Under the pieces are notes generated by a model. It saw only the letters and a program-made list of their open reading frames with translations, was not told the DNA's origin and did no database searches. A program made the position numbers and the translations under genes. A stretch of 64,000 nt of DNA from a virus: IMG/VR virus record IMGVR_UViG_3300014501_000002, positions 47,515 through 111,514 of that record; one strand, written 5' to 3'. Below, one piece after another: positions 7,625 to 64,000 of this stretch (position 1 is its first letter; every line of letters begins with the position of its first letter).

Positions 7625-8539
7625 TTAAAGAACGGGCACACTCGATCCCAGAATATCAAACCCCAGCCCGGCCTTTTTGGCCCATTCCTTGCGCAGCGTA
7701 GTGTTCTGTGCAAGCTTAGAATACCGATCGGTGATATCTCGGTTGGCCGAGTGGCCGATCCAGAACTTCAGGATGTCCTCGGGTGTCCCGACTTCCCGGA
7801 GCCGCGTGGTGCGAAACCGGCGAAGGCTGTGATGTCCAGGCACGCCGTCCGCTTTCAGCGTCCGGTACGTATTATCACGTTTCATGTTGAATAGTTTGCC
7901 TGTCGGGCCACTTATCGCGCGCAGCGTATCACTGATCTCTGGGATGATATCCACCTCGCGCGTGCCTGCGGCCGTCTTCGGCGTCGCGCTTCGTCCGTCC
8001 TGTACCTGATCCCGGATAATCAGCTTGCCTTGCTCTGGGAGCCAGAACGACCCTTTGCCGTCGTCCAGGCCCGCCCGTAGCGCCAAGCATTCGCTGATTC
8101 TAAGCCCAGTACCAGCCAGAGTGATATACAGAGGCTTAAACAGCCCTTCCGCCTCGGAAATCGCCTCCTGGAGGGCTTCCCGGCCTATGCTAGGCGATGA
8201 TTGATCCGATGGATTCACTTCCGGAAGGTCGATAAAGTCTGCATTCCACGTACGCGGGTACAATTCGTTGCCATTCGCGTCCGTCGCGGAGGCTATAACC
8301 CCCTTTAAACAGTTCACGATACCACACACCGACGCCGGTTTTAGTTCCCCGGCGATCGAAGACACAAACTTCTTCATGCTTCCGTTATCGAAGTTCGCCA
8401 AGTCTTCGGCGCCGCAGAGGGGAACGATCCATGTCCGGAGGTAACTCTGGTATCTTTGCAGGGTTCCCGGCTTGGGCGGCTTCCGGCGCCGAGACTCTAA
8501 GGCTTTGATGAATGCGACCGATTGTTCTTGGATGGTCAT
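7625..8539 (-). CDS. int: Tyrosine recombinase / phage integrase
   Basis: 304 residues from ATG 8539, chosen because CAGGAGG precedes it; a longer frame starts at 8575. It catalyses site-specific strand exchange for integration and excision. An N-terminal SAM-like core-binding region precedes the catalytic domain. Catalytic residues visible: Arg147 (TGLRIS), Lys188 (TPK), His237 and Arg240 (HSLRRFR), His263 (WIGHS) and Tyr273 (RYSKL). The set is complete, so it should be active. It is the leftmost leftward gene with its own promoter, and implies a temperate lifestyle. No attP core could be assigned with certainty. Confidence 0.95.
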   Translation of the reverse strand: MTIQEQSVAFIKALESRRRKPPKPGTLQRYQSYLRTWIVPLCGAEDLANFDNGSMKKFVSSIAGELKPASVCGIVNCLKGVIASATDANGNELYPRTWNADFIDLPEVNPSDQSSPSIGREALQEAISEAEGLFKPLYITLAGTGLRISECLALRAGLDDGKGSFWLPEQGKLIIRDQVQDGRSATPKTAAGTREVDIIPEISDTLRAISGPTGKLFNMKRDNTYRTLKADGVPGHHSLRRFRTTRLREVGTPEDILKFWIGHSANRDITDRYSKLAQNTTLRKEWAKKAGLGFDILGSSVPVL

Positions 8540-8557
8540 TGTATCCTCCTGTAAACG

Positions 8558-8586
8558 AAGGTAGCATTGATTCACAGGCGGGTCAA
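8558..8586 (-). promoter_or_regulatory. Sigma70-like promoter for the integrase
   Basis: Leftward TTGACC - 17 bp - TACCTT, ending about 20 nt before the integrase ATG. The integrase can therefore be expressed independently of the long early operon. Confidence 0.6.
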
Positions 8587-20194: not shown

Positions 20195-20443
20195 TTAGGC
20201 CTCCTCGTGACAACTACATTCACATCCCATCCTCTTGCGGTCTCTGCATCCGCAGTTTTGGCAGGCGATCTTGCCAGGCGTGTCTATCATCGTACTTGTG
20301 CTCGATTTCGCAACATCCTTTTCTGTGAACCGATACGGTTGAACAATCCAATTGCCGCCGCAACTACAATCTAAATCCAGTTCTCGCTGGCGTTCAGACT
20401 CTATTGCGTCACAGTCTTCGCAAATAAATGGGTCGGGGATCAT
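20195..20443 (-). CDS. Double zinc-site protein, 82 aa
   Basis: CEDC...CSC in the N-terminal half and CQNCGCRDRKRMGCECSC in the C-terminal half. Unknown function. Confidence 0.55.
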   Translation of the reverse strand: MIPDPFICEDCDAIESERQRELDLDCSCGGNWIVQPYRFTEKDVAKSSTSTMIDTPGKIACQNCGCRDRKRMGCECSCHEEA

Positions 20444-21036
20444 ATGCTTCTCCTAAGCCGAATACGCTTCGGCAATCTCTCATCTTGCAAACCGTTTCCT
20501 ACTTCGTCTGATGCCGCTAAATTGGTAATCTCATCGATCATTCCGAGACTGAACATGACGGATGATAACGAGCCGAACGATACATTCTCACCGGCCTCAA
20601 TCTTTGTTAACGTCTGTCTAGTTATTCCGGCTCGTTCAGATAATAACTTCATAGGAATGCCCCGACGTTTTCTAGCGTTTCCAATTTGCTCTCCAACTAG
20701 GCGTAAAGCACGCTGAACAGGAATTGGAAGAGGCGCCCTTGGACCCATTCTAGGATTTCCCCCAATCCCGCCCTGCCTCAGATTATAGCATTTCTCGTTG
20801 CCCAGAGTATCTTTGATGATTTTTCTTTCGTGTTCGTATGCCTCTTCTTTAAGCTGATAAGTTTTAACCGTACTTTTCTTAAACGCCTGAGCGCCATACC
20901 GGCGAATCGCTTTACGTAGCGCTGAACCGGACCCTAAATAATTGTCATCCACCTGAGAAGTTTTGTGGACCCCGTAATAAAACTCGTCGGTTATAAGGTT
21001 TGTTGTCATATAGACTTCGTAGAAAAAATTTAGCAT
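20440..21036 (-). CDS. GIY-YIG nuclease fused to an XRE/HipB-like HTH
   Basis: 198 residues. Residues ~1-95 match phage GIY-YIG homing endonucleases: TNLITDEFYYGVHKTSQVDD, YLGSGSAL, AIRRYG, EAYEHERKII and the terminal YNLRQGGIGG. Residues ~110-180 are a Cro/C1-type helix-turn-helix (GEQIGNARKRRGIP...SERAGITRQTLTKIEAGENVS), as in HipB antitoxins. A homing nuclease joined to a lambda-repressor-type DNA-binding domain is unusual: it could target cutting or repress its own gene. Alternatively two genes have fused by deletion. The start codon overlaps the upstream gene. Confidence 0.75.
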   Translation of the reverse strand: MLNFFYEVYMTTNLITDEFYYGVHKTSQVDDNYLGSGSALRKAIRRYGAQAFKKSTVKTYQLKEEAYEHERKIIKDTLGNEKCYNLRQGGIGGNPRMGPRAPLPIPVQRALRLVGEQIGNARKRRGIPMKLLSERAGITRQTLTKIEAGENVSFGSLSSVMFSLGMIDEITNLAASDEVGNGLQDERLPKRIRLRRSI

Positions 21037-30131: not shown

Positions 30132-30634
30132 GGTTTCTCCTTTGATTCTTTGAGTTTTCTTAGAGCCGGGCCTATAAACTCCATCATTTCGTCATATGAA
30201 AGATGGTCTAATTTTACTCTGTTGCACCTAATGCAACTGGGCACGACGTTGTGAGCCGCATAAGGAGTGCGGGGATCTACTTTATCGAGAGAATATCCCT
30301 TTAATCCCAGTGGTCCTAAACAATAATGGCAGCTATTGAGCCCGATAAGGTTAGAATAAAAATTTAAACTCCACAGCGGGTCTGATTTAGGCGTACACGC
30401 TTTCTTTAAAAAGAATTTTAATCTCCCGTGCCTAAAAGAAATAGTCTTTTGAAGATTAGATCGATAAGATGCGTGAGTGATGTAATAGTTTTTAGAATAC
30501 AAACGTAAGTCGTCTCGATGTTGAATACGATACTTTCCTTCGCACACTTTACACCATCCTTTCCGCTTTTTAAGAACGGAAGGTGTAGTATTGCTCCTTG
30601 TGAGAGCCTTCTTGCACTTATAGCATTTCATCAT
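30128..30634 (-). CDS. HNH homing endonuclease
   Basis: 168 residues. N-terminal zinc-ribbon pairs (CYKCKKAL, WCKVCEGKY) and a C-terminal HNH core (CHYCLGPLG, LDKVDP, AHNVVPSCIRCNRVK). Overlaps the UvrD gene by 17 nt. Probably a mobile gene inserted at the end of the helicase gene. Confidence 0.75.
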   Translation of the reverse strand: MMKCYKCKKALTRSNTTPSVLKKRKGWCKVCEGKYRIQHRDDLRLYSKNYYITHASYRSNLQKTISFRHGRLKFFLKKACTPKSDPLWSLNFYSNLIGLNSCHYCLGPLGLKGYSLDKVDPRTPYAAHNVVPSCIRCNRVKLDHLSYDEMMEFIGPALRKLKESKEKP

Positions 30635-33014
30635 TTAAAAACTCCAAAATGAACTGCGACGGTTGGTTAGTGTACGATATGTGAAGAAAATCCGCCGCTC
30701 TCGTACACCCGACAAAAAATATTCTTTCTTCCTCCATCAATTCTCCCTCTTTATGGGGCATCATACCCTGATCGCATCCTATTAAAAATACGTTGGAAAA
30801 TTCGCGACCTTTTGAGCCGTGCACCGTACTGAGCGTCAACCCCTTGGCCGACTTCCGGCCATGGGTTCTTTTTCTAAGATAATTCGTAAACTCGTGAATT
30901 GTTCCCTTACCCGCCGCCATGCGAACCAGGTCATTTAGGTTCTCAATCGGGTTTGAATCCTTGGTAGCGGAGTTGCGATACAAATAGACTAGGTTGTGCT
31001 GGTCGATTAGATTCTGCAACACGACATTCGCAGGCAACTGACTCCCTGAGTCTTTCGCTAATGCCAGCAGCTTACGAACCTCATTCAACTCGAAATAGTC
31101 CTTCTTCCCCAGGATCTTATATTTGATGCCTTTCATAGCGCAAACTTTCTGGAATTCGAACAGCTGTCGATTGGTCCGAGCGATCACAGCGCTGTTGGCT
31201 GGGTCGCTGATCTGCGCGAGCACCCAATACGCTTCCTCGTGTGAATCGCTGTACTTCTTGAACACCGGATCGACGCCCTCCTCATTATCGGTAATCATGT
31301 GCGACGCGATGCCGTTGTCCACCGGCAGAATCTTCTTAAAGAATTCCACAAGGCGCTTCGTGCTGCGGTAGTTCTGCCCAAGGTACAAAGATTTCGCGCC
31401 ACTGAACTTCTTAGAAAATCCGGACATATTCCCTGGCTGAGCACTGCGCCATTCGTAAATACAATTCCCGACCGGGATGCCGTCCGCTACGTAAGTATGA
31501 TCCTTTTCTACATCTAAAGAATAAACAAGCCCAGAATACATTTCTCTACTTACATCATTAATAATCGCGCTATCGTAAGAAATTTCAGTTGGTACACGCA
31601 TCAGCGCTGGTATAATATTTGCAGCGACTGTTTTAAAGTAACCGTGAAATTTTGTTAAGTGCTTCTTATGCGGCCATGATACCAATGGGTGTTCGAATAA
31701 CAAACGATGGTGCGATAAGCAATAGCGGCCCCCATCGGGGTTTGCTTCTCTGAAAATCTGATTAATCTGTTCTTGAGTTTTTTTAGAATTATTATATTTA
31801 TTATGAAAAGAGCATTCAGGGATGCCGTACCTCAAAGAGTAAACCTCTTCCCAAAATTCTGCTTCGGCTTGGGATGAAAGGACACGAAGAATCCACATCT
31901 TATTTGCCCCTTCTTGATATCCTCTATGAGACAACTGATTTGATCCGCTAACTCTTCGAAATCTACTAGTGCCCAATCTAAAACCTACATCTTTCTTCCA
32001 CATGAGATACACAAAATAGTTTCTTCCTTTATTTAATGCATCTTTATCAAATTTCACCCACATAAAATGATTGGGTGTGACCCTCGTCGTCTTCTTTCCA
32101 GAGTGAATCCGCAACATCCATCCTCTATAATACCTAACCGCCCGTTTAAATCTGCGGCCTGATCCAAGACGAATTCTTTTACCTTTTGAGTCCCAAGAGA
32201 CAAGCCTATCGGTACACGAACATATGTCTTCAATAGGAACACTTTTTACAATTGCGGGGCTCCGACCACATTTTTCCTTAACTAAAACACTCACTTCAGT
32301 CTCGGGCGGCTGACATTGATTTTCGTCTCCTACGACGAAGATATTGCCGTCGAAGATCAGTTGCAAAAGACGGAACTGAACGACGTCTGTATCCTGGCAC
32401 TCATCTACCGAAATGTACTTTCGCTTCCACCGGTCACGCACGTCCTCGTTGAATTCTAACAGAAGCACGGTCTCTCGAATCACACTATCGAAATCCAGCC
32501 AGCCTTGTTCGCGGCACTCCTTCTCGTAGTCTTCGTACGCGAGCGCGTAGAAAAATTCTTGATTGCTCGCTTGAGCCTTAGCCTGATGGGGCTCCACGTT
32601 CGTACGTTTCCAGGTTGAGATTTTCTCCATCAAAGTACGAAAGTTACTGATGGCTGGGTACCGCTTGACCAGGTCGAACACCAAAGTGTAATCCTCCATC
32701 CCGACCGGGATCACGGTGTCGCACAGCTTAAATGGCAGTTGATCTCGCTCCTTTTTCAGTAGCTCCATGGCGAAGCTATGGAATGTGCGGAACACAGCGT
32801 CCGCGTCCAGCAAGCCGACTTTGCGCGCCATTGTTTCCGCCGCCGCAGAAGTGAACGTCAGGTTCAGGATGTCCTTCGACTGTATGCCCTTAGTGAGCAT
32901 CCCAAGGTACCGCTGCACCAGCGTAGAGGTCTTCCCCGAGCCTGGACCGGCGATGACAACATGGACTCCTTCGACGGCGTCCAGGCATGCCTGTTGTTCA
33001 TCGTTGAACTTCAC
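30618..33014 (-). CDS. UvrD/PcrA-type superfamily 1 helicase containing an intein
   Basis: 798 residues before splicing, about 514 after. Walker A GPGSGKT (~23-29), DExx box VDECQD (~203-208), motif III VGDENQ, then the intein, then CIYEWRSA. Later motifs: YRST, TVHGSKGREF (motif V) and FFVGCTRAA (motif VI). It unwinds DNA 3' to 5' in replication or recombination. The intein interrupts motif III exactly between Gln233 and the extein Cys (usually Ser in this family), so activity needs splicing. It belongs with the exonuclease and annealing protein. Confidence 0.9.
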   Translation of the reverse strand: MKFNDEQQACLDAVEGVHVVIAGPGSGKTSTLVQRYLGMLTKGIQSKDILNLTFTSAAAETMARKVGLLDADAVFRTFHSFAMELLKKERDQLPFKLCDTVIPVGMEDYTLVFDLVKRYPAISNFRTLMEKISTWKRTNVEPHQAKAQASNQEFFYALAYEDYEKECREQGWLDFDSVIRETVLLLEFNEDVRDRWKRKYISVDECQDTDVVQFRLLQLIFDGNIFVVGDENQCQPPETEVSVLVKEKCGRSPAIVKSVPIEDICSCTDRLVSWDSKGKRIRLGSGRRFKRAVRYYRGWMLRIHSGKKTTRVTPNHFMWVKFDKDALNKGRNYFVYLMWKKDVGFRLGTSRFRRVSGSNQLSHRGYQEGANKMWILRVLSSQAEAEFWEEVYSLRYGIPECSFHNKYNNSKKTQEQINQIFREANPDGGRYCLSHHRLLFEHPLVSWPHKKHLTKFHGYFKTVAANIIPALMRVPTEISYDSAIINDVSREMYSGLVYSLDVEKDHTYVADGIPVGNCIYEWRSAQPGNMSGFSKKFSGAKSLYLGQNYRSTKRLVEFFKKILPVDNGIASHMITDNEEGVDPVFKKYSDSHEEAYWVLAQISDPANSAVIARTNRQLFEFQKVCAMKGIKYKILGKKDYFELNEVRKLLALAKDSGSQLPANVVLQNLIDQHNLVYLYRNSATKDSNPIENLNDLVRMAAGKGTIHEFTNYLRKRTHGRKSAKGLTLSTVHGSKGREFSNVFLIGCDQGMMPHKEGELMEEERIFFVGCTRAADFLHISYTNQPSQFILEFLNDEML
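31464..32315 (-). other. Intein within the UvrD helicase
   Basis: 284 residues (234-517). It starts with Cys (CQPPETEVSVLV), has the block B-like TRVTPNHFMW, block F-like YSLDVEKDHTYVADG and ends VGN followed by extein Cys. The penultimate residue is Gly instead of the usual His. In place of a LAGLIDADG or HNH nuclease there is a region with EAEFWEEVYSLRYGIPE, a segment I know from other helicase inteins. Probably a splicing-only intein. The region is more AT-rich than its flanks. Confidence 0.85.
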
Positions 33015-40757: not shown

Positions 40758-41867
40758 TCAGGCTACGCATGGGCTTAATCTCCCTACGTTGACGCCTGAC
40801 GGCTCTATCCGAGCCGAAATATTTACCGACGCTATGAAGTCTGCGTTGGCTTCAAAACCGCAATCCAAGCATTTGAACTCCGCTTGCGTTGGTCTGTTCT
40901 TTGCATCTTTGTATCCGCAGCACGGGCACGTTTGACTTGTGAACCTCGGGTCTACCGCGACGATACGTCTTCCAGCCTCTTCCGCTTTGAAGACGAGCAT
41001 TCGCAGCCACGTTCCCCATGATGCATCCAGAATCTGTTTGCTACAGTTGCCCTGAACCATTCCGGCGATGTTTAGATTCTCCACGCCGATGGTGCCGTAC
41101 TTCCGAATCAACGCCGTAGTTTGCTTGTGAAGAAAATCATTCCGCTTGTTCGCAATACGCTCGTGCAGTTTCCGAAGCAGCGCAACTGCCTTCCGTCTGC
41201 GATGCGAACCGCGCTTGCGGCGGGCGACTCTGCGCTGTGAACGTCGCAACTCGGCTTGAGCATTCTCGTAGAAGCGGGGGTTCTTGATAGGCGAGCTACC
41301 GTCGCTGAATGTGGCGTACTGAACCACGCCAACATCAATGCCAACCCGCGCATCACTGTGCGGCAAATGCACAGGAGAAAACTCTACAGCAAGGCATGCG
41401 TACCAATTCTGCCCGCTGCGTTTGACTACCAGCGACTTGACAGCCGAGCCTTCGGGCAAGGGACGGGAGAGCCGCAACTTCACAGCACCAATCTTGGAGA
41501 TTTGCAAATACCGTCCCGCGAGTTTGAATCCAGTGTTGTTGAAGGCAAAGGAATCAAATCGGTCTTTGCCTTTGAATCGTGGGAATCCTGCTTTTTGCCC
41601 GTGCTTGATGCGACGGAAGAATCCTTGAAACGCTCGGTCTAATTTCTTAATCACGTTCTGCAAAATGTGAACGTGGACGCCTTGGTACTCAGGGAAAGCC
41701 GCTCGTACTTCGGTGACTTCTCGCATTTGTGCAAACTGACCGATACGCCGCATCTTGCGTTGTTCAAGAGCGCAGTTGTACAAAAATCGGCAGGAATCCA
41801 GCAGGGTCTGCAACGCAGCCTGCTGCTTGCGAGTTGGCACCAACCGATACTTGAATGTCTTTATCAT
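40758..41867 (-). CDS. tnpB: TnpB-family RNA-guided nuclease (IS605 accessory)
   Basis: 369 residues from ATG 41867, which overlaps the stop of the tnpA remnant (TGATG). The typical N-terminus is MIKTFKYRLVPTRKQQAAL. RuvC residues: Asp in VGIDVGVVQYA, Glu in IGVENLNI and Asp in ANADFIASVNI. Zinc finger: CPCCGYKD and CLDCG. Such proteins use the element's 3'-end RNA to cut DNA and favour element retention. The active residues look intact. The right-end hairpin follows the stop and would form the end of the guide RNA. Confidence 0.9.
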   Translation of the reverse strand: MIKTFKYRLVPTRKQQAALQTLLDSCRFLYNCALEQRKMRRIGQFAQMREVTEVRAAFPEYQGVHVHILQNVIKKLDRAFQGFFRRIKHGQKAGFPRFKGKDRFDSFAFNNTGFKLAGRYLQISKIGAVKLRLSRPLPEGSAVKSLVVKRSGQNWYACLAVEFSPVHLPHSDARVGIDVGVVQYATFSDGSSPIKNPRFYENAQAELRRSQRRVARRKRGSHRRRKAVALLRKLHERIANKRNDFLHKQTTALIRKYGTIGVENLNIAGMVQGNCSKQILDASWGTWLRMLVFKAEEAGRRIVAVDPRFTSQTCPCCGYKDAKNRPTQAEFKCLDCGFEANADFIASVNISARIEPSGVNVGRLSPCVA

Positions 41868-42019
41868 CAGACGTTCTTTTGATTCTCCACATACTGCTTG
41901 ATTACCAGTCGCTTCGCTATAGCACCTTCCAGAACCTTGCGGCGATACTTCGGACACCACACAACGTGGTACTTGCTGCTGTAAACCACGTTGTTATTCG
42001 ACTTGTATCCTTGGAGCAT
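41867..42019 (-). pseudogene. tnpA: Internally deleted TnpA (Y1/HUH transposase)
   Basis: 50 residues: the N-terminus VVYSSKYHVVWCPKYRRKVL joins directly to the C-terminal IKQYVENQ, which carries the catalytic Tyr. The central HUH motif is missing, so it cannot transpose. Start ATG 42019. Confidence 0.8.
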
Positions 42020-42244: not shown

Positions 42245-42841
42245 CTAGAACGATTTGTCAAGGACGACATCAGGCGCAGGCGCCACGGGTGGCGCAACCT
42301 GTGCTTGTCCCTGAATCCCAGCCGCGAGAACAGCCTGGCCTTGCGGGCTGGCCGGAGTGCTCATTTGACCGCGGTTGTCCTTCTTGTCCTTGAGCCGGAC
42401 GAAGTCTGCCGGGATCGCAAGGGGTGTCAGTGTAGCCGGGTACGGCAGGATGCCCTTCACGTTCGCGTACATCTTCGTGCCGTCCTTACTCGGTTCCAGG
42501 ACGATGAAAAGTTGATTATTGCGACCGATCAACTGTTCAACGTCGTACGGACCGGCGGGTGGCGGTGTGCCGAGAATGCCCCGGATAGCTTTGTATAGGT
42601 CTGACTTCTCGTTAGTGGTTTGGTTCATTTCCGACATCACGCGGAACGGCTTTCCTTCGGAGTCAGTCGCGTAACCGGTGCCGTCAAGCTTGCCGAGAAC
42701 CCACACGAACCGGACCTTCATTTTGTCGCCGAACTGCGTCTTAATCAAGCCGAGGTCGGCCGTGTCGACTAGGACGCCGTTGTAGGCTCCAGATGCTGGC
42801 TTCTCAAATTCCTTCTTGTTGTCATTGACTATTAACGCCAT
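42245..42841 (-). CDS. DUF669-like ssDNA-binding protein
   Basis: 198 residues. The N-terminal OB-like part (KPASGAYNGVLVDTADLGLIKTQFGDKMKVRFVW) and the middle segment EGKPFRVMSEMNQTTNEKS are typical of phage proteins of the DUF669/ssDNA-binding group. The C-terminus is a flexible Pro/Gln-rich linker ending DVVLDKSF, an acidic-aromatic tip like that of SSB. Probably binds single-stranded DNA at the fork. Followed by a terminator hairpin. Confidence 0.65.
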   Translation of the reverse strand: MALIVNDNKKEFEKPASGAYNGVLVDTADLGLIKTQFGDKMKVRFVWVLGKLDGTGYATDSEGKPFRVMSEMNQTTNEKSDLYKAIRGILGTPPPAGPYDVEQLIGRNNQLFIVLEPSKDGTKMYANVKGILPYPATLTPLAIPADFVRLKDKKDNRGQMSTPASPQGQAVLAAGIQGQAQVAPPVAPAPDVVLDKSF

Positions 42842-50749: not shown

Positions 50750-51802
50750 TTATTTCACATCAAAGTTATTATACAGATAACGTTGAAGCGATGCAACACG
50801 AAAAGTAGTGTCCAGAATCTGTACCCGAAGTAGAAATTCATCGGCCCGCAACTGGTTTCGAAACACGAGCGCGGCCGTTGTGCTGGAGTCCGCGATCGAC
50901 GCCATCGTATCCACGATTTTGACATCTTGAACAGTTAGTGCTTTCAGTTCATCCTGCTGAACTTTCAAGATTTTAATCACGACACCATGCTGAGCCTGTA
51001 CGTTCTGTATCACATCGCCGACTTGCGCTCGCTTCCACGTTGCGTATGCTTCAAGCGATGCGTCATAGTGCTTGTTCGCTGCACGTCTTCCCAAATCGTA
51101 CGTCACAGTGACCCCGGCGTACGGACTAGCGGCGGACAGGAACGGAGTCATGGGTTTCTCTATTCCCGTTGACACCGCGACGTCCCACTCGTTCATCTTG
51201 GCAAGACGATATTGACTCACTTGACTGCGGCCTGCACTCTGGTACTCAAACTCAGCTAGGTTTGTCAGTGATGCATCGGACAACTCTGGAACATAGATAT
51301 CTGCGACGGCGACGGCCGTGGCCTGTCTGTCCAATTCGAGCGCCAACCGTTGTTTGTCCAGCAAGTACACCGACTGCTTTGGAAGATTGTGCGAATCCAA
51401 AAGTTTTTGATTGTCCACGATTAGCGCGTTCACTGCTTGCGTGGCCTGCGCGATCAAGGACAGCCTGTTACTCAACGCAGCCCGGTCAAGGCTTAGCATG
51501 TCGTACTGAATCCGCTCTTGTACGGTCACTGTATCGATATACTGCACGCACGCTTCGTGTCCGATTTTTAAATCGAGCCGCCCTTTGCGTATGTTGTTGA
51601 TCGAATCGGTCACGCCGACGAACTGTTGGGGCGCCGTGCCTTGTGCCGGGGTGATGCCGGACGTTAGCACCGGTGATACGGACACAATTTCTTGTGCCTT
51701 GCCTTGTTCTTCCACGTACCGGCAATAAGCACTTGTATCTTGGTTGCTCTGAGCTCCTGCAACGGTGGCGAATAATGCGACAGCTATAATGAGTGCTTTC
51801 AT
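50750..51802 (-). CDS. TolC-like outer-membrane efflux protein
   Basis: 350 residues. Signal peptide MKALIIAVALFATVAGAQS. Two long helical coiled-coil regions (~100-170 and ~250-330) and a YAGVTVTYDLGRRAANKHYDA strand-turn typical of the outer-membrane factor family. It would form the outer-membrane channel. Upstream in the same operon are an HlyD-like adaptor and a glycosyltransferase, so it probably exports a polysaccharide. It is short for TolC (about 430-490 residues) but complete at both ends. Confidence 0.7.
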   Translation of the reverse strand: MKALIIAVALFATVAGAQSNQDTSAYCRYVEEQGKAQEIVSVSPVLTSGITPAQGTAPQQFVGVTDSINNIRKGRLDLKIGHEACVQYIDTVTVQERIQYDMLSLDRAALSNRLSLIAQATQAVNALIVDNQKLLDSHNLPKQSVYLLDKQRLALELDRQATAVAVADIYVPELSDASLTNLAEFEYQSAGRSQVSQYRLAKMNEWDVAVSTGIEKPMTPFLSAASPYAGVTVTYDLGRRAANKHYDASLEAYATWKRAQVGDVIQNVQAQHGVVIKILKVQQDELKALTVQDVKIVDTMASIADSSTTAALVFRNQLRADEFLLRVQILDTTFRVASLQRYLYNNFDVK

Positions 51803-51811
51803 ATTCCTCCT

Positions 51812-52861
51812 TTAGAACAACAGTGGCTTGTGATTAATCATCAGAGTCATAGACTCAGCGGACTGCGGACGCGTCAACTCAACTTGAGCTAGGAATCCAC
51901 GGATGTCTGAGCGAAACAGCGGATGCACGGCGTGTTCCTCTTCTGAAAAGATTTTCTTGACCGTGCCGACTTGACGGCACACGATCATGTTCAGGTAGCA
52001 ATCATACACGGGTGCACCGATTCGCGCGGAGCCTCGGTTCCCATAAGGGACAAACACGAAGTTCACATTGCGACCGCGGGTCATCGCGATGAAGTACGGA
52101 GTCTGCTGTGCCGTTTCCACCGCTCGATGCATTGTGTCTATCTGAGCCTGTTCGGTTCGAATCTGCCGTTGGGCGGTCGATGTACCGATGTCGAGTTGAA
52201 GCACTTCAGACGTCAACTCTGCTTGTTTATTCAAGGTGTCGAGAAGCAACGTGTTCACCGTACTCTTCTGCAGAATCGAATCGTTCACCACGACTTCTGC
52301 AATCTTGCTGTCGGTGAACGTGCTCTGCGCCTGATTGAGTGCCGTCTTCTGAATGGCCGCGTCTCCCTTCGTAATCAGCCCGGCCAGAACGTCCTGATCG
52401 ATTTCATCCTCAACTTCCTGAACCTGACCGATCACCGCACCTGTTTTGATATTGTCGAATCGCTTTTGGTGGGAGAGTGACATAAGTTCCTGCCCGGTCA
52501 CGTGACTATTCTGCCCCTCACGTCGAAGCGCTGAGACCAACTGTGGTTCCAACGCAGCCAACTGCGCACGATGGTGTGCAAATTCTGGCAAACTCTCTTG
52601 CAGTTTCTTCACATCCAGTTCGAGAACCTGCGATGCCGCCTCGGTCTGAACTATTTTGATCGTAAGATCGAGCGCCTTGTCATCAGACGGTGAAATGATC
52701 AGAGGAGCGACCCACGATGAGTCAACCGCGTAGAATCCCAGCAGAAAGATGTAACTGAAAAATCCAAGCAGTACTCCGTACAGCGTGAGGACCGCCGTGA
52801 TCCGGTACGACCAGATAAACGATTTGCGTACAGCTACAGGAACGAAATTGGTGTCATTCAT
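51812..52861 (-). CDS. HlyD-like membrane-fusion protein
   Basis: 349 residues. One N-terminal membrane helix (~18-45, LTLYGVLLGFFSYIFLLGFYAV), followed by a long alpha-hairpin (~70-240) and a C-terminal beta domain (NFVFVPYGNRGSARIGAPVYDC, GTVKKIF). This is the arrangement of periplasmic adaptors such as HlyD, EmrA or Alg44-like proteins. It would link the inner-membrane glycosyltransferase to the TolC-like channel. Lies 9 nt from the TolC-like gene and 11 nt from the glycosyltransferase. Confidence 0.75.
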   Translation of the reverse strand: MNDTNFVPVAVRKSFIWSYRITAVLTLYGVLLGFFSYIFLLGFYAVDSSWVAPLIISPSDDKALDLTIKIVQTEAASQVLELDVKKLQESLPEFAHHRAQLAALEPQLVSALRREGQNSHVTGQELMSLSHQKRFDNIKTGAVIGQVQEVEDEIDQDVLAGLITKGDAAIQKTALNQAQSTFTDSKIAEVVVNDSILQKSTVNTLLLDTLNKQAELTSEVLQLDIGTSTAQRQIRTEQAQIDTMHRAVETAQQTPYFIAMTRGRNVNFVFVPYGNRGSARIGAPVYDCYLNMIVCRQVGTVKKIFSEEEHAVHPLFRSDIRGFLAQVELTRPQSAESMTLMINHKPLLF

Positions 52862-52872
52862 TGTTGCCTCCT

Positions 52873-54066
52873 TTACCGATTACCCCAAGAGTCGCTGTCT
52901 AATGTGAACAGCGCTAGTGTCGTGATAAACAACCCGCTCGCGATCCACCACAACCCGAAGACTGCCAGCTTCAGCGGGTTACGAACCTTCTGTTCGGGAT
53001 GGTAATGGTTCACAATTAAGATCAGCACGAAAGACATGGCAATCATTAGTGTGACACCAAACACATTCACCCAAGCCGTCGGGTCCGCATTAAGAAACCA
53101 CGTCAAGATTTTCACGAGACATACAACCGTCGTGATGGGCACGAAAAAATTCGAATACAACGAGCCCGCATCTAAGTCCCAAATATGTTTGGGCAGCATT
53201 CTAATTGTGAAAAAGAAATCCCGAATACCACTACGCCGCCACCGGAGTTGCTGTGCCCAAAACTTCTCAAAACTGTTCGGCGCAATTGTCCAGCACATTG
53301 CTTTATCATCCATGAACGTCCCGTAACCGCGCAACAGAACTTGGTGCGTCAAGAAACGATCTTCTCCAGACTTGATCGGGACGCCCCACCAGTTACGATT
53401 TTGAATCTGTGGTCGAATCTCCTGTAGCAGGGTTCGGCGAATCGCCAGCATATACCCACCGATGCAGCCCACGTTGCGAGTGTATGACTCCGTGACTTTT
53501 GCCAGCTTGAACCACAGGAAATAAAAGTACACCTGAAACACGGTCAAGCTATTGTCGTTCGGGTTACGAACGCCCACGGGGCCGCCGCATGCGCCGATGC
53601 GCTTGTCCCCAAGGGATGACATTAGTTCCCGAATGCAATTCTTCCCGAGCACGATGTCAGAATCGACGATCAGCACAATCTCGTTAATGCAGCGGTCGAT
53701 GGCTCGAAGATAAGTATGGCTCTTGCCAATGTTCTTTTCATTCTGCACCGGCTCAACGATGGCGCCGAAATCCTGTTGTGCTGTCTGCATCCACTCAAAG
53801 CTGTCGTCGGTCGAACCGTCGTCCTGACAGCAAATCTGAATCTGTCCTGCGGGGTAGTCGCTCTCACAAACGCTTCGGATGGTCGTGTAGACCGCCTTCC
53901 CCTCGTTGTAGCAGGGGATGATGACGCTCACGGTCGGGGTGAAGGTGTAGTCCTTCGCTATGCCCGTGTCCTTTGGGTTAATGAACTTTACCCATAGAAT
54001 CACAGCAAAGCGAATTCCCTGCACAGTCAGTGGCACCGCCAGCATCAGCCAAAAGAGCGAAAGCAT
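52873..54066 (-). CDS. Family 2 processive glycosyltransferase, membrane-bound
   Basis: 397 residues. Membrane helices at the N-terminus (~1-28) and at ~305-325, 335-353 and 367-388. The catalytic domain has IIPCYNEG (49-56), DDGSTDD (82-88), DSD (135-137), GEDRFLT (234-240) and QQLRWRR (272-278), the full set of hyaluronan/chitin/cellulose-synthase-like enzymes. It would polymerise a polysaccharide from UDP-sugars and move it across the membrane. A phage copy with adaptor and outer-membrane channel is very unusual. Confidence 0.88.
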   Translation of the reverse strand: MLSLFWLMLAVPLTVQGIRFAVILWVKFINPKDTGIAKDYTFTPTVSVIIPCYNEGKAVYTTIRSVCESDYPAGQIQICCQDDGSTDDSFEWMQTAQQDFGAIVEPVQNEKNIGKSHTYLRAIDRCINEIVLIVDSDIVLGKNCIRELMSSLGDKRIGACGGPVGVRNPNDNSLTVFQVYFYFLWFKLAKVTESYTRNVGCIGGYMLAIRRTLLQEIRPQIQNRNWWGVPIKSGEDRFLTHQVLLRGYGTFMDDKAMCWTIAPNSFEKFWAQQLRWRRSGIRDFFFTIRMLPKHIWDLDAGSLYSNFFVPITTVVCLVKILTWFLNADPTAWVNVFGVTLMIAMSFVLILIVNHYHPEQKVRNPLKLAVFGLWWIASGLFITTLALFTLDSDSWGNR

Positions 54067-55790: not shown

Positions 55791-56525
55791 TTAGCGCCTT
55801 TTTCCTGCGAATGCCCCAAGAAGTATCAGACATATTAAACCTATACCGAGCAACGAAAGCGATGAAGATTCAGGTACTGGAGTTGGCACGGTTGGTGGCC
55901 GCGTGTCGGGTGGCACGAACAAGCAGCACGGGACGATATACTGTGGAACATTGCTCGCGACAGGCGGTGCGATCACCGGCGAGCCGAGCAAGTCTTGCAC
56001 CGTGTCATTGGCCGCGTACGGAATCTCCGGAGCATTCGGCGCGGACACAATATTATCCGGCGGGGCCGACACTGGATAGATATCCGATGGTTCGGTACCC
56101 GATGTTTCGATAGCTAGCGGAGCATCGAACCGCAACAGATTGCCACATTTCACGAGTATGACCGTGGTGCCGTCCGTGATGACGGGCTCTCCGGCATGAA
56201 TAAACCGCTGTTTCTTTGTCCAATACATAACCCCATTCTTCATGTACGAGACGTACGCGAAGCCGGATCGCTGCGTATTCGTGAAGATGGCTTTCGGGCC
56301 GAGCGTCGGGTACAGGTAGCGATGCAGACTTAGCTCCGTGTCGTTGTGGATGCCACCTGGGACCAACTCGTGCCCGAAGATATCCGACTCTGGAGTTGAC
56401 TTCTGGATGTCGGGCGCCGTGGGCGCGTCGTTGCGCGCTGTAAACCGCGAAGCATGGTAGGCGAGGTCTGCACCGAAGGATAATGCTACCGTGAGAACTA
56501 CAAACAAGAAAATTAGGTGTTTCAT
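55791..56525 (-). CDS. PEP-CTERM-type exported protein
   Basis: 244 residues from ATG 56525 (AAGGAATCACG upstream). An N-terminal signal peptide (HLIFLFVVLTVALSFG) and a C-terminal PEP-CTERM-like tail: PVPESSSLSLLGIGL, more hydrophobic residues, then GKRR. The tail is the sorting signal for exosortase, an enzyme found in Gram-negative hosts that make exopolysaccharide. The middle has CGNLLRF and a Pro-rich linker. An extracytoplasmic function is likely. Its neighbours include a polysaccharide synthase cassette. Confidence 0.75.
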   Translation of the reverse strand: MKHLIFLFVVLTVALSFGADLAYHASRFTARNDAPTAPDIQKSTPESDIFGHELVPGGIHNDTELSLHRYLYPTLGPKAIFTNTQRSGFAYVSYMKNGVMYWTKKQRFIHAGEPVITDGTTVILVKCGNLLRFDAPLAIETSGTEPSDIYPVSAPPDNIVSAPNAPEIPYAANDTVQDLLGSPVIAPPVASNVPQYIVPCCLFVPPDTRPPTVPTPVPESSSLSLLGIGLICLILLGAFAGKRR

Positions 56526-56710
56526 CGTGATTCCTTGGGTGAATACAACTCCCGCAACACAACACGCGCCTGATTTTGTAGGTCTATGGCGCTCACTTTG
56601 CAATTTGCTGCACACATATAGTGAAAACGATGGGCGTCAATATTCCAAAGTACTTGAATAGCTTTGAAAATCGATACTTCGATTCCATCCTCAACATTGT
56701 GACTCTTCAT
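56522..56710 (-). CDS. Hypothetical protein, 62 aa
   Basis: ATG 56710 after AAGGAGG. Helical, with CAANCKVSA. Overlaps the PEP-CTERM gene by 4 nt. Confidence 0.5.
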   Translation of the reverse strand: MKSHNVEDGIEVSIFKAIQVLWNIDAHRFHYMCAANCKVSAIDLQNQARVVLRELYSPKESR

Positions 56711-59783: not shown

Positions 59784-60494
59784 CTAGGCAATTAGTGCGA
59801 GCGAAGTACCCGCTATCTGTACGAAACCCGATGCATCCTTCTTAGCTGGTCCCTTCGCACGTAACCCGATGACTGATCCTTTGTACCCATCCAAGAAACG
59901 CAAATCGTGCAAGTCTCCGTCAATCACTCGCGCGCCTAAAAACGTCTCCGGTAACGGGGCTCCGCGTTTCGTGTTAAAGACTACGGCCACATTGATGCCA
60001 TGATTTAACGCGTCGATTGCATGTGCCCGGTTAGACTCATGTAGCGAAAATGTAATGTGGTAATTCGGCCGCACGCGTAGTTGTGGCCTAGGTATCTTCG
60101 TGTAATCATAGAATTGCACGTGCGGGAATTCGGCACATATCGCGGCCGACAGTTCTGCTAGATCAGATGTGCCATTGATTCGGACGGCGGGTATCATATG
60201 AAGCTTTGCCGCGCGTCGGACCAATGCATGCACGTCCTTTCGCAGTTGCACCATAAACCCGGCTTTATCCCGTGTGTACCACTGTGTCTTGCGAATACGG
60301 GCTCCGTGAATCATTTCGGGAAACACCATTGCTCGCCCGGCATCGTCAAGACATCCCTTGATACAACCCGCCGATGCGAACGGACACACGTTACGCCCGC
60401 TTTCCTTCGATGGAGCAAGATACAGAATGCCCGTAAGGTATCCAAGTGACTCGCCCTTGCTAGTTTTCGCGTTCTGTACTGTAAGAAGCTTCAT
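59784..60494 (-). CDS. Conserved phage protein with CPFASAGC motif
   Basis: 236 residues. VCPFASAGCIKGCLDDAGR is a Cys cluster conserved in a phage protein family (DUF7227-like). RKTQWYTRDKAGFMVQLRKDVHALVRRA and VRINGTSDL follow. The Cys residues may hold an iron-sulfur cluster or metal; the function is unknown. First gene leftward of the control region after DUF932. Confidence 0.65.
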   Translation of the reverse strand: MKLLTVQNAKTSKGESLGYLTGILYLAPSKESGRNVCPFASAGCIKGCLDDAGRAMVFPEMIHGARIRKTQWYTRDKAGFMVQLRKDVHALVRRAAKLHMIPAVRINGTSDLAELSAAICAEFPHVQFYDYTKIPRPQLRVRPNYHITFSLHESNRAHAIDALNHGINVAVVFNTKRGAPLPETFLGARVIDGDLHDLRFLDGYKGSVIGLRAKGPAKKDASGFVQIAGTSLALIA

Positions 60495-60577: not shown

Positions 60578-61393
60578 TTAGAGTAAACCTTTCAGTTCCG
60601 CCATTGCTTCGGCGCGCGTCCATAGTGCACGGTTCAAGCGGACGTCATTCGAAATAGACTTGACGGCGCGTGAAGTAACGCGTTCGCCATTCGAAAACGT
60701 CCGGATGCCCTTCGTGGTGTTCTCTTGGATGCGGTTAAAGGTATTCCACAAGCTATTACCCGCATCGTCTCGCCGACGTGGTGCGAGCAACATTTCGGGA
60801 GTGATACCCGTTTGCTTCTCTCCTTCCTTTTCTTCGAACCGGAGACGATGCGCGGACGTGGCAAGCGCCAATTGTTCATTGGTGCTCAATTCGACGCTCT
60901 GCCATTTGCCGATGACATCCAATATCTTCGGCGCTTGTTCGAAAACGTGCTGTGTACCGGCAATCACTTCGTCAATGATATTTCCAGTGTGACGGATTGA
61001 AACGGCCGCGAGCAAGCTATCTGCCACAACCATTCCGTTTGAGCACACGAAGCGAAACACACCACCCATAAGCTTATAGCGGCTTGTTCCGTCATGCGCG
61101 TTAATCAATACCACTTCGACGATTGACTCGCCGACGACGGCAAGCGTATTGAAGCTTTGAAGCGAACGGAAGCGAAGCATGTGTTTCGTGAAATCCTTCT
61201 TATCCGCGATACGTGTGCGAGACTGCGACGCGGATACGGGCACGAAACCCGCTTCCCGTAAACCTGAAATCACGTCGGACGTGGGGATAAACGTGTACCG
61301 ACCGCTTTGCGCGTGGTACGGTTCAGTTGCGAACGCGGACGGCGCAAAGTGTCTGATATCTTCGATGCTCATTTCATTGCGGTAGTTCGTCAT
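60578..61393 (-). CDS. DUF932 protein
   Basis: 271 residues. Central FRFVCSNGMVV and SIRHTGNIIDEV segments and YKLMGGVFRF are hallmarks of DUF932, a family found in phages and plasmids. Molecular function unknown. The promoter with GTAC boxes at 61458-61517 lies about 65 nt upstream. Confidence 0.75.
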   Translation of the reverse strand: MTNYRNEMSIEDIRHFAPSAFATEPYHAQSGRYTFIPTSDVISGLREAGFVPVSASQSRTRIADKKDFTKHMLRFRSLQSFNTLAVVGESIVEVVLINAHDGTSRYKLMGGVFRFVCSNGMVVADSLLAAVSIRHTGNIIDEVIAGTQHVFEQAPKILDVIGKWQSVELSTNEQLALATSAHRLRFEEKEGEKQTGITPEMLLAPRRRDDAGNSLWNTFNRIQENTTKGIRTFSNGERVTSRAVKSISNDVRLNRALWTRAEAMAELKGLL

Positions 61394-61457: not shown

Positions 61458-61517
61458 AGGATACGATGCGGCTTGCGAAACGTCAATGGTACGTTAGTAC
61501 TGATTATACCTTAGTAC
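61458..61517 (-). promoter_or_regulatory. GTAC-box promoter A
   Basis: Leftward: GTAC-n13-GTAC-n4-GTAC-CA-TTGACG-n17-TATCCT. It lies in front of the DUF932 gene. Same layout as promoters B-E. Confidence 0.7.
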
Positions 61518-61599
61518 TCTCATTTTGTGGGACTACCACGAATCGAAGTATTCGCGCGGACAGGATCAGCATGCAACCGAGAATGACTAGAGATATCAT
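61504..61599 (-). CDS. Membrane micropeptide, 31 aa
   Basis: GGAGGAAACTAGCC before ATG, a cassette shared with two other genes. ISLVILGCMLILSARILRFVVV is one membrane helix. The stop overlaps promoter A. Confidence 0.5.
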   Translation of the reverse strand: MISLVILGCMLILSARILRFVVVPQNESTKV

Positions 61600-61601
61600 G
61601 G

Positions 61602-61774
61602 CTAGTTTCCTCCATGTATCGTGAGATACTTATGGACGCGTTCTTTATACGTGATAATCCACGTGGGGTGTGCGTCGCGCATACTGTTAATGTACGGCCA
61701 TGCGTCGCAGTTTACTGCGAACGTGGCAAGGATACGTTTTCGTTTGCCTACTGTGCCATCGCGTAAACAGTTGT
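61602..61774 (-). CDS. ORF without a clear start, about 57 aa
   Basis: Ends with IHGGN before the GGAGGAAACTAG cassette, and reads DNCLRDGTVGKRKRILATFA... No usual start codon in frame until ATG (Met ~31). An ATG in another frame (61772) begins MTTVYAMAQ. Possible frameshift or rare start. Confidence 0.35.
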
Positions 61775-61778
61775 CATG

Positions 61779-61877
61779 TTAGTTGGCTCCGTTCCAGATG
61801 ATAACTCCCATAATGAAAGTTATCAAGAATCCTATTACCTGTACCGCGTCTAGTGGATTAACTGTTATCGTTATCAT
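61779..61877 (-). CDS. Membrane micropeptide, 32 aa
   Basis: MITITVNPLDAVQVIGFLIT and further hydrophobic residues. The ATG falls about where transcription from promoter B should start, so the message could be leaderless. Confidence 0.45.
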   Translation of the reverse strand: MITITVNPLDAVQVIGFLITFIMGVIIWNGAN

Positions 61878-61883
61878 GGCTCG

Positions 61884-61941
61884 ATTATGCCTGTAATCTG
61901 TCCGCGCGTCAATAGTACTTCCGTACTGAATTTCACAGTAC
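61884..61941 (-). promoter_or_regulatory. GTAC-box promoter B
   Basis: Leftward: GTAC-n11-GTAC-n4-GTAC-TA-TTGACG-n17-CATAAT. The first spacing is 2 bp shorter than in the others. Confidence 0.65.
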
Positions 61942-62177
61942 TAAACCTGTAAGTGTATGCGTGACTCCAGAACCAAGTTTGCGATATTGACGCGGCTTGG
62001 TGTTTCGTCGCGGTCCTTATCCCATGTAATATCCGCTAACGCGAACGTATCGGATAATGAGGAAATACCCGTTACGATGCCGCGTGCGAACGGAAGCGGA
62101 CCAGTGTAGGCCGATATGCTCCGCAAGAATTTAACAGAATATGCTACACGGCTACCTATTTCGATTTTCCCGCTCAT
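61941..62177 (-). CDS. Hypothetical beta-rich protein, 78 aa
   Basis: ATG follows GGAGG. Pattern KIEIGSRVAYSVKFL and FARGIVTGIS resembles a small SH3-like barrel. No family recognised. Confidence 0.55.
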   Translation of the reverse strand: MSGKIEIGSRVAYSVKFLRSISAYTGPLPFARGIVTGISSLSDTFALADITWDKDRDETPSRVNIANLVLESRIHLQV

Positions 62178-62302
62178 GATGCTTTCCTCCGTTTGAACTT
62201 GAGTATCACTACGGGCTCGCCAGTTCTGTCTAGCTTAAGCTTGCCCGTGGCGAGTTGGATAGCTACGAAAGCCGCGTGTGTCGGTTTGTTGTGCATTACC
62301 AT
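62174..62302 (-). CDS. Hypothetical small protein, 42 aa
   Basis: MVMHNKPTHAAFVAIQLATG with a basic end. The stop overlaps the next ATG. ATG 62302 lies close to the start of transcription from promoter C; ATG 62296 is an alternative. Confidence 0.5.
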   Translation of the reverse strand: MVMHNKPTHAAFVAIQLATGKLKLDRTGEPVVILKFKRRKAS

Positions 62303-62311
62303 GATGTATGC

Positions 62312-62371
62312 AGTCTATCCTATGGATAGTTTATCGTCAATGGTACAAAGGTACTGAATATTACTTAGTAC
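62312..62371 (-). promoter_or_regulatory. GTAC-box promoter C
   Basis: Leftward: GTAC-n13-GTAC-n4-GTAC-CA-TTGACG-n17-TAGACT. Confidence 0.7.
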
Positions 62372-62537
62372 CCTCTGCAATAGACTTGAACGCATAGAAT
62401 GCTTCGCCTAGGACGGGCATGGCAATGTCAGATTGAAAATCATCGGATTCGAACAGTGACTCGACGACATACTGCGCGCCGTCTTCGTTGACTTGTGTAA
62501 CGATGCTGTCGTTATAGATGCCTTGGATGATGTCCAT
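62361..62537 (-). CDS. Hypothetical acidic protein, 58 aa
   Basis: AAAGGAG before the ATG. Acidic (DIIQGIYNDSIVTQVNEDG, then FESDDF). The stop lies in promoter C. Confidence 0.55.
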   Translation of the reverse strand: MDIIQGIYNDSIVTQVNEDGAQYVVESLFESDDFQSDIAMPVLGEAFYAFKSIAEGTK

Positions 62538-62564
62538 TTGTTTCTCCTTTGTGTTACTGTGCCC

Positions 62565-62624
62565 ATGCTACGATATGAATAGTTTAATGTCTATAGTACG
62601 TTGGTACCGAATGTTACTTAGTAC
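62565..62624 (-). promoter_or_regulatory. GTAC-box promoter D
   Basis: Leftward: GTAC-n13-GTAC-n4-GTAC-TA-TAGACA-n17-TAGCAT. The start region reads ATGGGCACAGTAACA, shared with promoter E. Confidence 0.7.
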
Positions 62625-62625
62625 G

Positions 62626-62826
62626 TTATTTGTCCCATACCCGATCAACCAGACCAACATACTCGCGTTCGATATCATCGTTAAAGAACAGGGTTACAGA
62701 CTCGCACGATGCGCGGCTTCGCATTTCTTTGGACAGGCGAACGTACGCGCCGTACTTCATGCGCGCAGTGTGTTGGTTGTTTCCTTCGTACACTGTACCG
62801 ATGTTACCTACAATTACTTGGTACAT
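62626..62826 (-). CDS. Hypothetical protein, 66 aa
   Basis: GGAGGCAACTAGCC before ATG. Beta-rich N-terminus (MYQVIVGNIGTVYEG) and an acidic end. No family recognised. Confidence 0.55.
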   Translation of the reverse strand: MYQVIVGNIGTVYEGNNQHTARMKYGAYVRLSKEMRSRASCESVTLFFNDDIEREYVGLVDRVWDK

Positions 62827-62828
62827 GG

Positions 62829-62990
62829 CTAGTTGCCTCCTTTGATAGACTGATACACTTCGTCCGTCTCGCTTGTTCCGCCGTTACTCTCTACCACGTT
62901 GGATGCTACTTGATAACTCTCGCCGGTCAGTACGCGGCATCCATTATGTTCCACACCATAAAACCCATTTCCTTCGTTGATTAGTTTCAT
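62829..62990 (-). CDS. Hypothetical protein, 53 aa
   Basis: GGAGGTAACTAGCC before ATG. Ends with SIKGGN because the next gene's ribosome binding site is inside the coding sequence. No family recognised. Confidence 0.55.
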   Translation of the reverse strand: MKLINEGNGFYGVEHNGCRVLTGESYQVASNVVESNGGTSETDEVYQSIKGGN

Positions 62991-62992
62991 GG

Positions 62993-63190
62993 CTAGTTAC
63001 CTCCTTCGTTGAAACGCTGGATAGCATCGCGGTACTGCTTACGCTGTACGCGGCCGATGCTCGACTGCGGATCAGGCTCCTCAGTTCCGAATCGTTGCAC
63101 CGTGACGTGATGCATGCTCGGAAGTGAGACAGGGAACAGTAAGGATAACAGTTTTTCGAAGATGGCTCGCATTGCTAAGGTGCGTTTCAT
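62993..63190 (-). CDS. Hypothetical protein, 65 aa
   Basis: ATG 63190 follows AGGAGATATCAAA. N-terminal hydrophobic helix (MRAIFEKLLSLLFPVSL), then a basic tail ending EGGN. Confidence 0.55.
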   Translation of the reverse strand: MKRTLAMRAIFEKLLSLLFPVSLPSMHHVTVQRFGTEEPDPQSSIGRVQRKQYRDAIQRFNEGGN

Positions 63191-63215
63191 TTTGATATCT
63201 CCTGTTACTGTGCCC

Positions 63216-63276
63216 ATGATATGCCTTAGTCTCGTTTCCCGTCAATGGTACAATTGTACCGATTATGCCTTAGTAC
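63216..63276 (-). promoter_or_regulatory. GTAC-box promoter E
   Basis: Leftward: GTAC-n13-GTAC-n4-GTAC-CA-TTGACG-n18-TATCAT. Confidence 0.65.
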
Positions 63277-63381: not shown

Positions 63382-63452
63382 TTGGTGACAGCATTGTGCA
63401 AATAGTGTCACCAAATAGGATTGGTGACAGAATAGCTAGATGCTGTCGCCAA
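63382..63452. repeat. Two inverted repeats of TTGGTGACA
   Basis: TTGGTGACA (63382-63390) faces TGTCACCAA (63406-63414), and TTGGTGACA (63421-63429) faces TGTCGCCAA (63444-63452). The two units are about 39 bp apart. No T-run, so regulator or replication-protein sites are more likely than terminators. The rest of 63277-63435 has no gene that I can support. Confidence 0.7.
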
Positions 63453-63849
63453 TTCGCTGTGCCTCCTTCCATCCGAATCTAACCCGATTCAAATACTCCG
63501 ATGTTTCGTTCGCGGTCGAAAGGATTGAATTACCTAAGCTAATACCTTGTTTAAAATCGTTGTAACCCTTTGAAAATGCTTTAGTTGAGTCATCAGATGA
63601 TAGGCCGATTTGCTCTTGCGGCTTAGCCGCTTCTTGTGGCTCGCGCCCGGCTAATTGAACGTGTGCTGAAAGGGACCAGTAATAGTTCTTTCCATCGTAT
63701 AGCGTCCATCCGTTGATATTGCGTAGCGCACGTTGCATCGTTCGCCATTCAACAACTGTAAGACGGTCGCTGTCCAAGCGCTGTAAGTCTTCGACGCGGA
63801 CGGCGCCATTCTGCAACTGTTCCCTAAGCCATTCTTCATTACGTTCCAT
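63436..63849 (-). CDS. Hypothetical protein, 137 aa
   Basis: First leftward gene after the tandem repeats. AAGGAGG upstream. The N-terminal half (EEWLREQLQNGAVRVEDLQRL) resembles a small helical domain; the C-terminal half is helical and Ser/Asn-rich. Position suggests an early regulator, but no HTH is certain. Confidence 0.6.
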   Translation of the reverse strand: MERNEEWLREQLQNGAVRVEDLQRLDSDRLTVVEWRTMQRALRNINGWTLYDGKNYYWSLSAHVQLAGREPQEAAKPQEQIGLSSDDSTKAFSKGYNDFKQGISLGNSILSTANETSEYLNRVRFGWKEAQRIGDSI

Positions 63850-63867: not shown

Positions 63868-64000
63868 CCATCAGCACTATATAGTATAGTGCATTAAACC
63901 CTAACCCTAACCATCAGCATTATATAGTATAGTGCATTAAACCCTAACCCTAACCATCAGCATTATATAGTATAGTGCATTAAACCCTAACCCTAACCAT
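63868..64000. repeat. 43-bp tandem repeats with palindrome and CCCTAA units
   Basis: Three copies (63868-63910, 63911-63953, 63954-63996) and the start of a fourth at the window edge. Each has CCCTAACCCTAA and a palindromic CACTATA-TAG-TATAGTG (perfect in copy 1, one mismatch in the others). Lies upstream of the first leftward gene. Operator array or replication iterons are possible. Confidence 0.85.

Follow-up and report, generated by a model that had tools for sequence, protein, structure and literature searches.

Which factor reads five near-identical promoters, each headed by repeated GTAC units near the end of a viral contig, and does it switch them on or off? The promoters lie on the minus strand at the right end of the window, the 64,000-nucleotide stretch analyzed here, which corresponds to positions 47515-111514 of a 111,514-bp IMG/VR viral contig (IMGVR_UViG_3300014501_000002; G000 below). 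A first-pass annotation had described a box of three GTACs before each -35 element and proposed a regulon under one phage or host factor that contacts RNA polymerase from upstream.

Five promoters with a common upstream box

The promoters, the genes around them and the repeat at the contig end are, in window coordinates:

61458-61517, minus strand: promoter A, GTACTAAGGTATAATCAGTACTAACGTAC-CA-TTGACG-17-TATCCT (dyad core 61489-61500; -35 61481-61486; -10 61458-61463)
61884-61941, minus strand: promoter B, GTAC-n11-GTAC-n4-GTAC-TA-TTGACG-17-CATAAT (dyad core 61915-61926)
62312-62371, minus strand: promoter C, TTGACG-17-TAGACT (dyad core 62343-62354)
62565-62624, minus strand: promoter D, TAGACA-17-TAGCAT (dyad core 62596-62607)
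63216-63276, minus strand: promoter E, with the first box of the cluster, TTGACG-18-TATCAT (dyad core 63248-63259)
60578-61393, minus strand: DUF932 protein, 271 aa, target of promoter A (PF06067, E=1.3e-39)
59784-60494, minus strand: GP88 protein, 236 aa, second gene after promoter A (PF17338, E=3.5e-40)
61779-61877, minus strand: 32-aa ORF after promoter B
62174-62302 and 61941-62177, minus strand: ORFs of 42 aa and 78 aa after promoter C
62361-62537, minus strand: 58-aa ORF after promoter D, no family
62993-63217, 62829-62990 and 62626-62826, minus strand: three small ORFs behind promoter E, none assigned to a Pfam family above cut-off
63436-63849, minus strand: 137-aa protein, first gene before box E, itself without a box
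63868-64000, no strand: 43-bp tandem repeat that closes the contig; the repeat unit also opens it

The exact pattern GTACN13GTACN4GTAC occurs at four minus-strand sites (61489-61517, 62343-62371, 62596-62624 and 63248-63276), the only ones in the whole genome, against none in 100 dinucleotide shuffles and a chance expectation of zero. The fifth box, that of promoter B (61915-61941), has n11 in place of n13, its upstream GTAC being 15 bp away rather than the 17 bp found elsewhere. In all five, the -35 begins two bases downstream of the box (TTGACG in four, TAGACA in D), and the spacer to the -10 is 17 bp in A-D and 18 bp in E. With a TTGACA-like -35, a spacer within 16-18 bp and a TATAAT-like -10, these are sigma70-like promoters; the -10 elements of C, D and E are weak. 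The first-pass annotation was right about the five promoters, which the four exact sites plus B and the empty shuffles bear out, about the placement of their -35 and -10 elements, and about spacings fixed in four of the five. Its statement that each precedes one to three tiny genes holds for B, C, D and E, but A precedes the DUF932 and GP88 genes. We considered a TATAAT within box A as a second promoter and rejected it, as there is no -35 at the right distance and the other boxes lack it. Box C is partly coding, since the 58-aa ORF upstream has its final codons in the box, at the first GTAC and the TAAGTAA behind it.

The cluster is located just inside the leftward early region, beside divergent structural genes. 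Because a 43-bp repeat is common to both contig ends (window 63868-64000; L005 1-130) and a close relative, G003 (IMGVR_UViG_3300050133_000063), is syntenic across the contig-end junction, the genome is probably circular or terminally redundant there. The repeat carries a CACTATATAGTATAGTG-like palindrome at both contig ends and adjoins TGTCATG-CATGACA inverted repeats; together these may be an origin or control region. Three other minus-strand loci of the window deserve mention. A UvrD-type helicase (30618-33014) has an apparent intein insert from about CQPPETEVSV to HTYVADGIPVGNC. A glycosyltransferase gene and two neighbors resembling export components (50750-54066), a set also present in the distantly related phage G006, are possibly a phage-borne polysaccharide export cassette. 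Finally, a secreted-type protein (55791-56615) ends in a PEP-CTERM-like sorting tail (VPESSSLSLLGIGLICLILLGAFAGKRR), which is unusual for a phage.

A 16-bp dyad adjoining the -35 element

The useful and statistically solid unit is not the three GTACs, but a 16-bp dyad, YRGTACN4GTACYR, adjoining the -35. Of the 45 GTACN4GTAC sites in eight phage contigs, 30 are followed after two bases by a 4-5/5 match to TTGAC. Counted from the dyad start, exact TTGAC occurs 23 times at offset +14 and nine times at -14, with no more than two occurrences at any other offset. A scan of the IMG/VR collection with the pattern GTACN4GTACYRTTGACN17-19TANNNT returned 54 stretches with dyad, TTGAC and -10, compared to none when the -35 was reversed, a control that covered this arrangement (register 1 below). 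Among 65 non-redundant register-1 sites, position -1 to the left of the dyad core is A or G in all and position -2 is C or T in about 94%; both positions were free in the main scan, and a minority of the 65 sites came from an earlier scan with TCR fixed there. This left-flank YR mirrors the right flank, and a 16-bp dyad with mirrored YR flanks leads us to expect a dimeric DNA-binding protein. The spacer is 17 bp in 43/65 sites. Most have TTGAC, several end in TGGTATAAT, and several carriers show a near-consensus extended -10.

Only 8 of the 65 sites have the upstream GTAC at -17. It represents an additional half-site, present mostly in five contigs that are related or similar (G000-G004), where it lies 21 bp, or two helical turns, from the dyad center on the same face of the DNA. 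The three-GTAC box described at first is present in A-E, with its upstream GTAC a lineage-specific addition.

A second register over the -10 element

The dyad takes two positions relative to the promoter. In register 1, it spans about -51 to -36, abuts the -35 and precedes small early genes; all five sites here are of this kind, the only one present in this genome. Register 2 reads TTGACA-N8-GTACN4G-TACTAT, with the dyad in the spacer and overlapping the -10. It precedes the ERF-type recombination operon, or that operon's first gene, in G001, G006, G009, L181, L210, L230, L236 and L246; a 255-aa membrane-type gene in G006, G009 and L217; a lysozyme-like gene in G009; and, in G001, G006 and L242, an operon with a SprT-like protein and/or a NusG-like-fold protein. 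Collection-wide, 24 of 43 register-2 matches have the YR flank, and the remainder, about half, may be chance matches. At position 42532 of G009, one dyad serves divergent promoters, in register 1 one way and in register 2 the other.

At register-2 sites such as L181 2470, L196 1114, L221 3230 and L242 376, the predicted start codon is about 21 bp from the dyad start. Transcription is expected to begin close to that point, so leaderless mRNAs may carry these operons. We also documented a phage protein of ~410-460 aa (L108:9067-10359 in G006, L231:1574-2821 in G001, L242:1283-2518 and L193:8951-10174), encoded in the operon behind the register-2 dyad in G001, G006 and L242. It has a helical, HTH-like N-terminus and a C-terminal predicted fold that matches NusG (best Foldseek E=1e-5), and matched no Pfam or PHROGs family.

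Distribution and conservation

A motif search of the genome and its relatives, suggested by the first-pass annotation, returned the four sites in the genome and, by exact-pattern scan of IMG/VR, four further contigs with the complete box (G001, G002, G003 and G004). A looser core of the box is found in G005, G006 and G009, and the dyad recurs widely, at either of two fixed promoter positions in dozens of viruses of bacteria. Some carriers (G004, L203 and L194) have few genes in common, and carriers differ in G+C (62% for L194, 48% for L203); L194, L203 and other carriers of different G+C may have other hosts. The isolate Tunturi_3 has no boxes at its promoters, and a literature search for the box string gave no match among open-licence papers.

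Between G000 and G003, in which boxes C, D and E are orthologous, 36/36 GTAC letters are kept versus 38/51 other box letters. All 12 GTAC letters are retained in C; in E all 12 are retained versus 9 of the 17 other box letters, and in D all 12 are retained while the -35 changes to a weak TTGCGC. The G003 counterpart of promoter B has lost the dyad and retains TTGACG-17-CATAAT.

Repression or activation

The firm part of the mechanism is a single dimeric regulator that reads the dyad. Such a protein, recognizing YRGTACN4GTACYR, would set phage promoters as a group. We give a probability of roughly 0.55 to the reading in which the dyads are operators of this one regulator, forming a phage-borne regulon, and in which a repressor or dual switch is likelier than a pure activator. 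In register 2, the regulator would repress by occlusion, since the dyad overlaps the -10 and a bound protein would block polymerase. In register 1, it would most likely repress too, or act as a dual switch, on the small early genes as a group; pure activation is less favored, given the TTGAC of most carriers and the near-consensus extended -10 of many. The third GTAC in this phage and a few others probably provides an extra cooperative contact.

Some observations count against a repressor. Repressor operators usually occupy many positions, and the dyad here keeps to two, one of which, at -43.5, is a classical activator position. Conservation of the dyad across phages of different G+C would also be unusual for an immunity repressor, and promoters C-E with their weak -10 elements and the G003 copy of D with its weak -35 resemble activator-dependent promoters. 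Because of these weak elements, activation stays under consideration: an activator contacting sigma region 4 or the alpha-CTD from about -43.5 could switch the small early genes on, with register 2 representing repression by the activator protein, as for lambda CI. The 2-bp gap to the -35 is fixed in many phages and places the dyad about where an activator would sit, which is consistent with this alternative, as is the orthologue of D in G003, where the box was kept and the -35 weakened. However, the promoters with TTGAC as -35, which are the majority, and the many with an extended, near-consensus -10 would not need activation, and the counterpart of B in G003 dispensed with the dyad while keeping its core promoter. 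We therefore regard the activator as rather unlikely. For the first-pass annotation, this means that its proposal of one factor and a regulon is strengthened by the recurrence of one dyad, in one register, at numerous promoters in numerous phages. Contact with RNA polymerase from upstream is less well supported: the good -35 of most carriers should make an activator unnecessary, and in relatives the dyad also lies across the -10.

A phage or a host factor

The TnpB protein (40758-41873) is 64% identical to TnpB of an Acidobacteria MAG. Among 50,697 phage records, the best match of the portal protein is Tunturiibacter phage Tunturi_3 (35.6%, 6e-98; next 2e-6), which also ranks first for the capsid of group II. 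Tunturiibacter is an acidobacterium (PMC11924767), and these similarities suggest that the hosts are likely Acidobacteriota. Register 1 is found in 3 of 396 Acidobacteriota genomes versus 5 for a control pattern, thus without enrichment, and register 2 in 1 of 399 versus 0 for the control, a chromosomal, chance-like match. Lacking enrichment in Acidobacteriota and with its single matches in chromosomal context, the element was rejected as a host regulon. The regulator would accordingly be phage-encoded, the likelier of the two origins that the first-pass annotation had left open, because the presumed host genomes show no enrichment.

A host regulator such as LexA, a single switch that unrelated phages would borrow, for example for SOS induction of prophages, nevertheless has points in its favor. 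The dyad resembles the cyanobacterial LexA box, RGTACNNNDGTWCB / AGTACWNWTGTACT (PMC3091678), some carriers share few genes (G004, L203 and L194), and integrase-like genes are present. In this genome, the integrase-like ORF (7625-8575) is below the Pfam cut-off, and Tunturi viruses of Acidobacteriota have integrase ORFs, yet lytic cycles have been observed (PMC11924767). Against a host LexA, 20 of 28 lexA upstream regions in Acidobacteriota contain TTCGN7TTCG and 0/28 contain GTACN4GTAC. The TTCGN7TTCG direct repeat (often TTCGCN6TTCGC) occurs upstream of most SLATVHKH-type lexA genes of Acidobacteriota (L126-L155, L263 and L266) and is absent from other lexA types there; it is likely the acidobacterial LexA box. 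This box, together with the lack of enrichment in host genomes, disfavors host LexA or another host regulon: the host LexA (SOS) regulon was rejected for Acidobacteriota, the inferred hosts, whose box differs from the site, and we consider a host regulator improbable. A methyltransferase that controls the promoters by methylating their GTACs, in the way Dam acts at Mu mom, is very improbable: GTAC is a self-complementary 4-mer with two or three copies per promoter, but it is neither rare nor strongly over-abundant by itself (496 in the 111.5-kb genome), and a 4-base methylase would not require a conserved unit extending to YR-GTAC-N4-GTAC-YR at fixed spacing.

Returning to a phage-encoded regulator, BLAST and profile comparison between phage groups recognized, at the sensitivity used, no regulator gene common to all carriers; the genes that the groups have in common are mostly for replication, structure and lysis, or HNH genes. 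A shared CI/XRE repressor was rejected, as the search, which rests on HTH_3, gave a match above cut-off only in G000 and none in G003, G005, G009, G004 or G002. G000 encodes a GIY-YIG type protein with a C-terminal XRE-like domain (window 20440-21036, minus strand; HTH_3 E=3.3e-8). Two further candidates were set aside: a roughly 430-aa group II protein, considered as an autoregulated regulator, is absent from this phage and has a predicted fold that matches NusG, and a DUF3102-like 212-aa protein occurs in group II alone. The 137-aa protein upstream of box E has a predicted N-terminal helix-helix-helix-hairpin (mean pLDDT 48); its low-confidence model had no fold match, and it is a weak candidate for the DNA-binding regulator.

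More tentatively, and at less than even odds, we suggest that one regulator or regulator family, a DNA-binding protein of unrecognized type, has a DNA target conserved despite a divergence that leaves the phages themselves barely recognizable as related. It would act at two locked positions on early, replication, lysis and NusG-paralogue operons, and form a cross-phage regulon in acidobacterial and other phages.

Relation to known systems

Acidobacteriota are a dominant soil phylum, and to our knowledge almost nothing is known about gene regulation in their phages. In uncultured phages, the element can serve as a signature by which early and replication promoters are readily spotted; it also names co-regulated genes, and the 16-bp dyad is a precise bait for finding the regulator. 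If distantly related phages have this protein in common, there could be cross-regulation or cross-immunity between them.

Among activator systems, the class II promoters of NtcA and CRP-FNR are similar in having a dyad near -42 upstream of a sigma70 promoter. Class II promoters are usually without a good -35, and NtcA needs GTAN8TAC, whereas every site here has the spacing GTAN6TAC. LexA operators are not known to keep to a single promoter register. The core and N4 spacing of the dyad are nearly identical to those of the cyanobacterial LexA box (PMC3091678), but the presumed hosts here are Acidobacteriota, with TTCGN7TTCG as LexA box.

With the lambda CI operators (OR), the sites share dyads for one dimeric protein that adjoin the -35 at one promoter and cover a second promoter, and an operator shared by divergent promoters, as with the G009 dyad. 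They are placed so as to block a promoter, register 2 overlapping the -10 and register 1 abutting the -35. They differ in that the HTH_3 search found no shared CI/XRE gene, and in that one operator sequence is spread over distantly related phages in two rigid registers only. The stoperators of Cluster A mycobacteriophages are many copies per genome of one short operator common to related phages, as here, but they are asymmetric and mostly away from promoters. The sites described here are symmetric and tied to promoter elements, with a 4-5/5 TTGAC match just downstream in 30/45 and exact TTGAC at -14 in nine cases. Because the defining features of both systems were looked for and a phage-encoded XRE/HTH_3 repressor, for the one, and many sites away from promoters, for the other, were absent, we file the element under neither. 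By analogy, its regulatory logic resembles that of lambda-type operators and stoperator systems.
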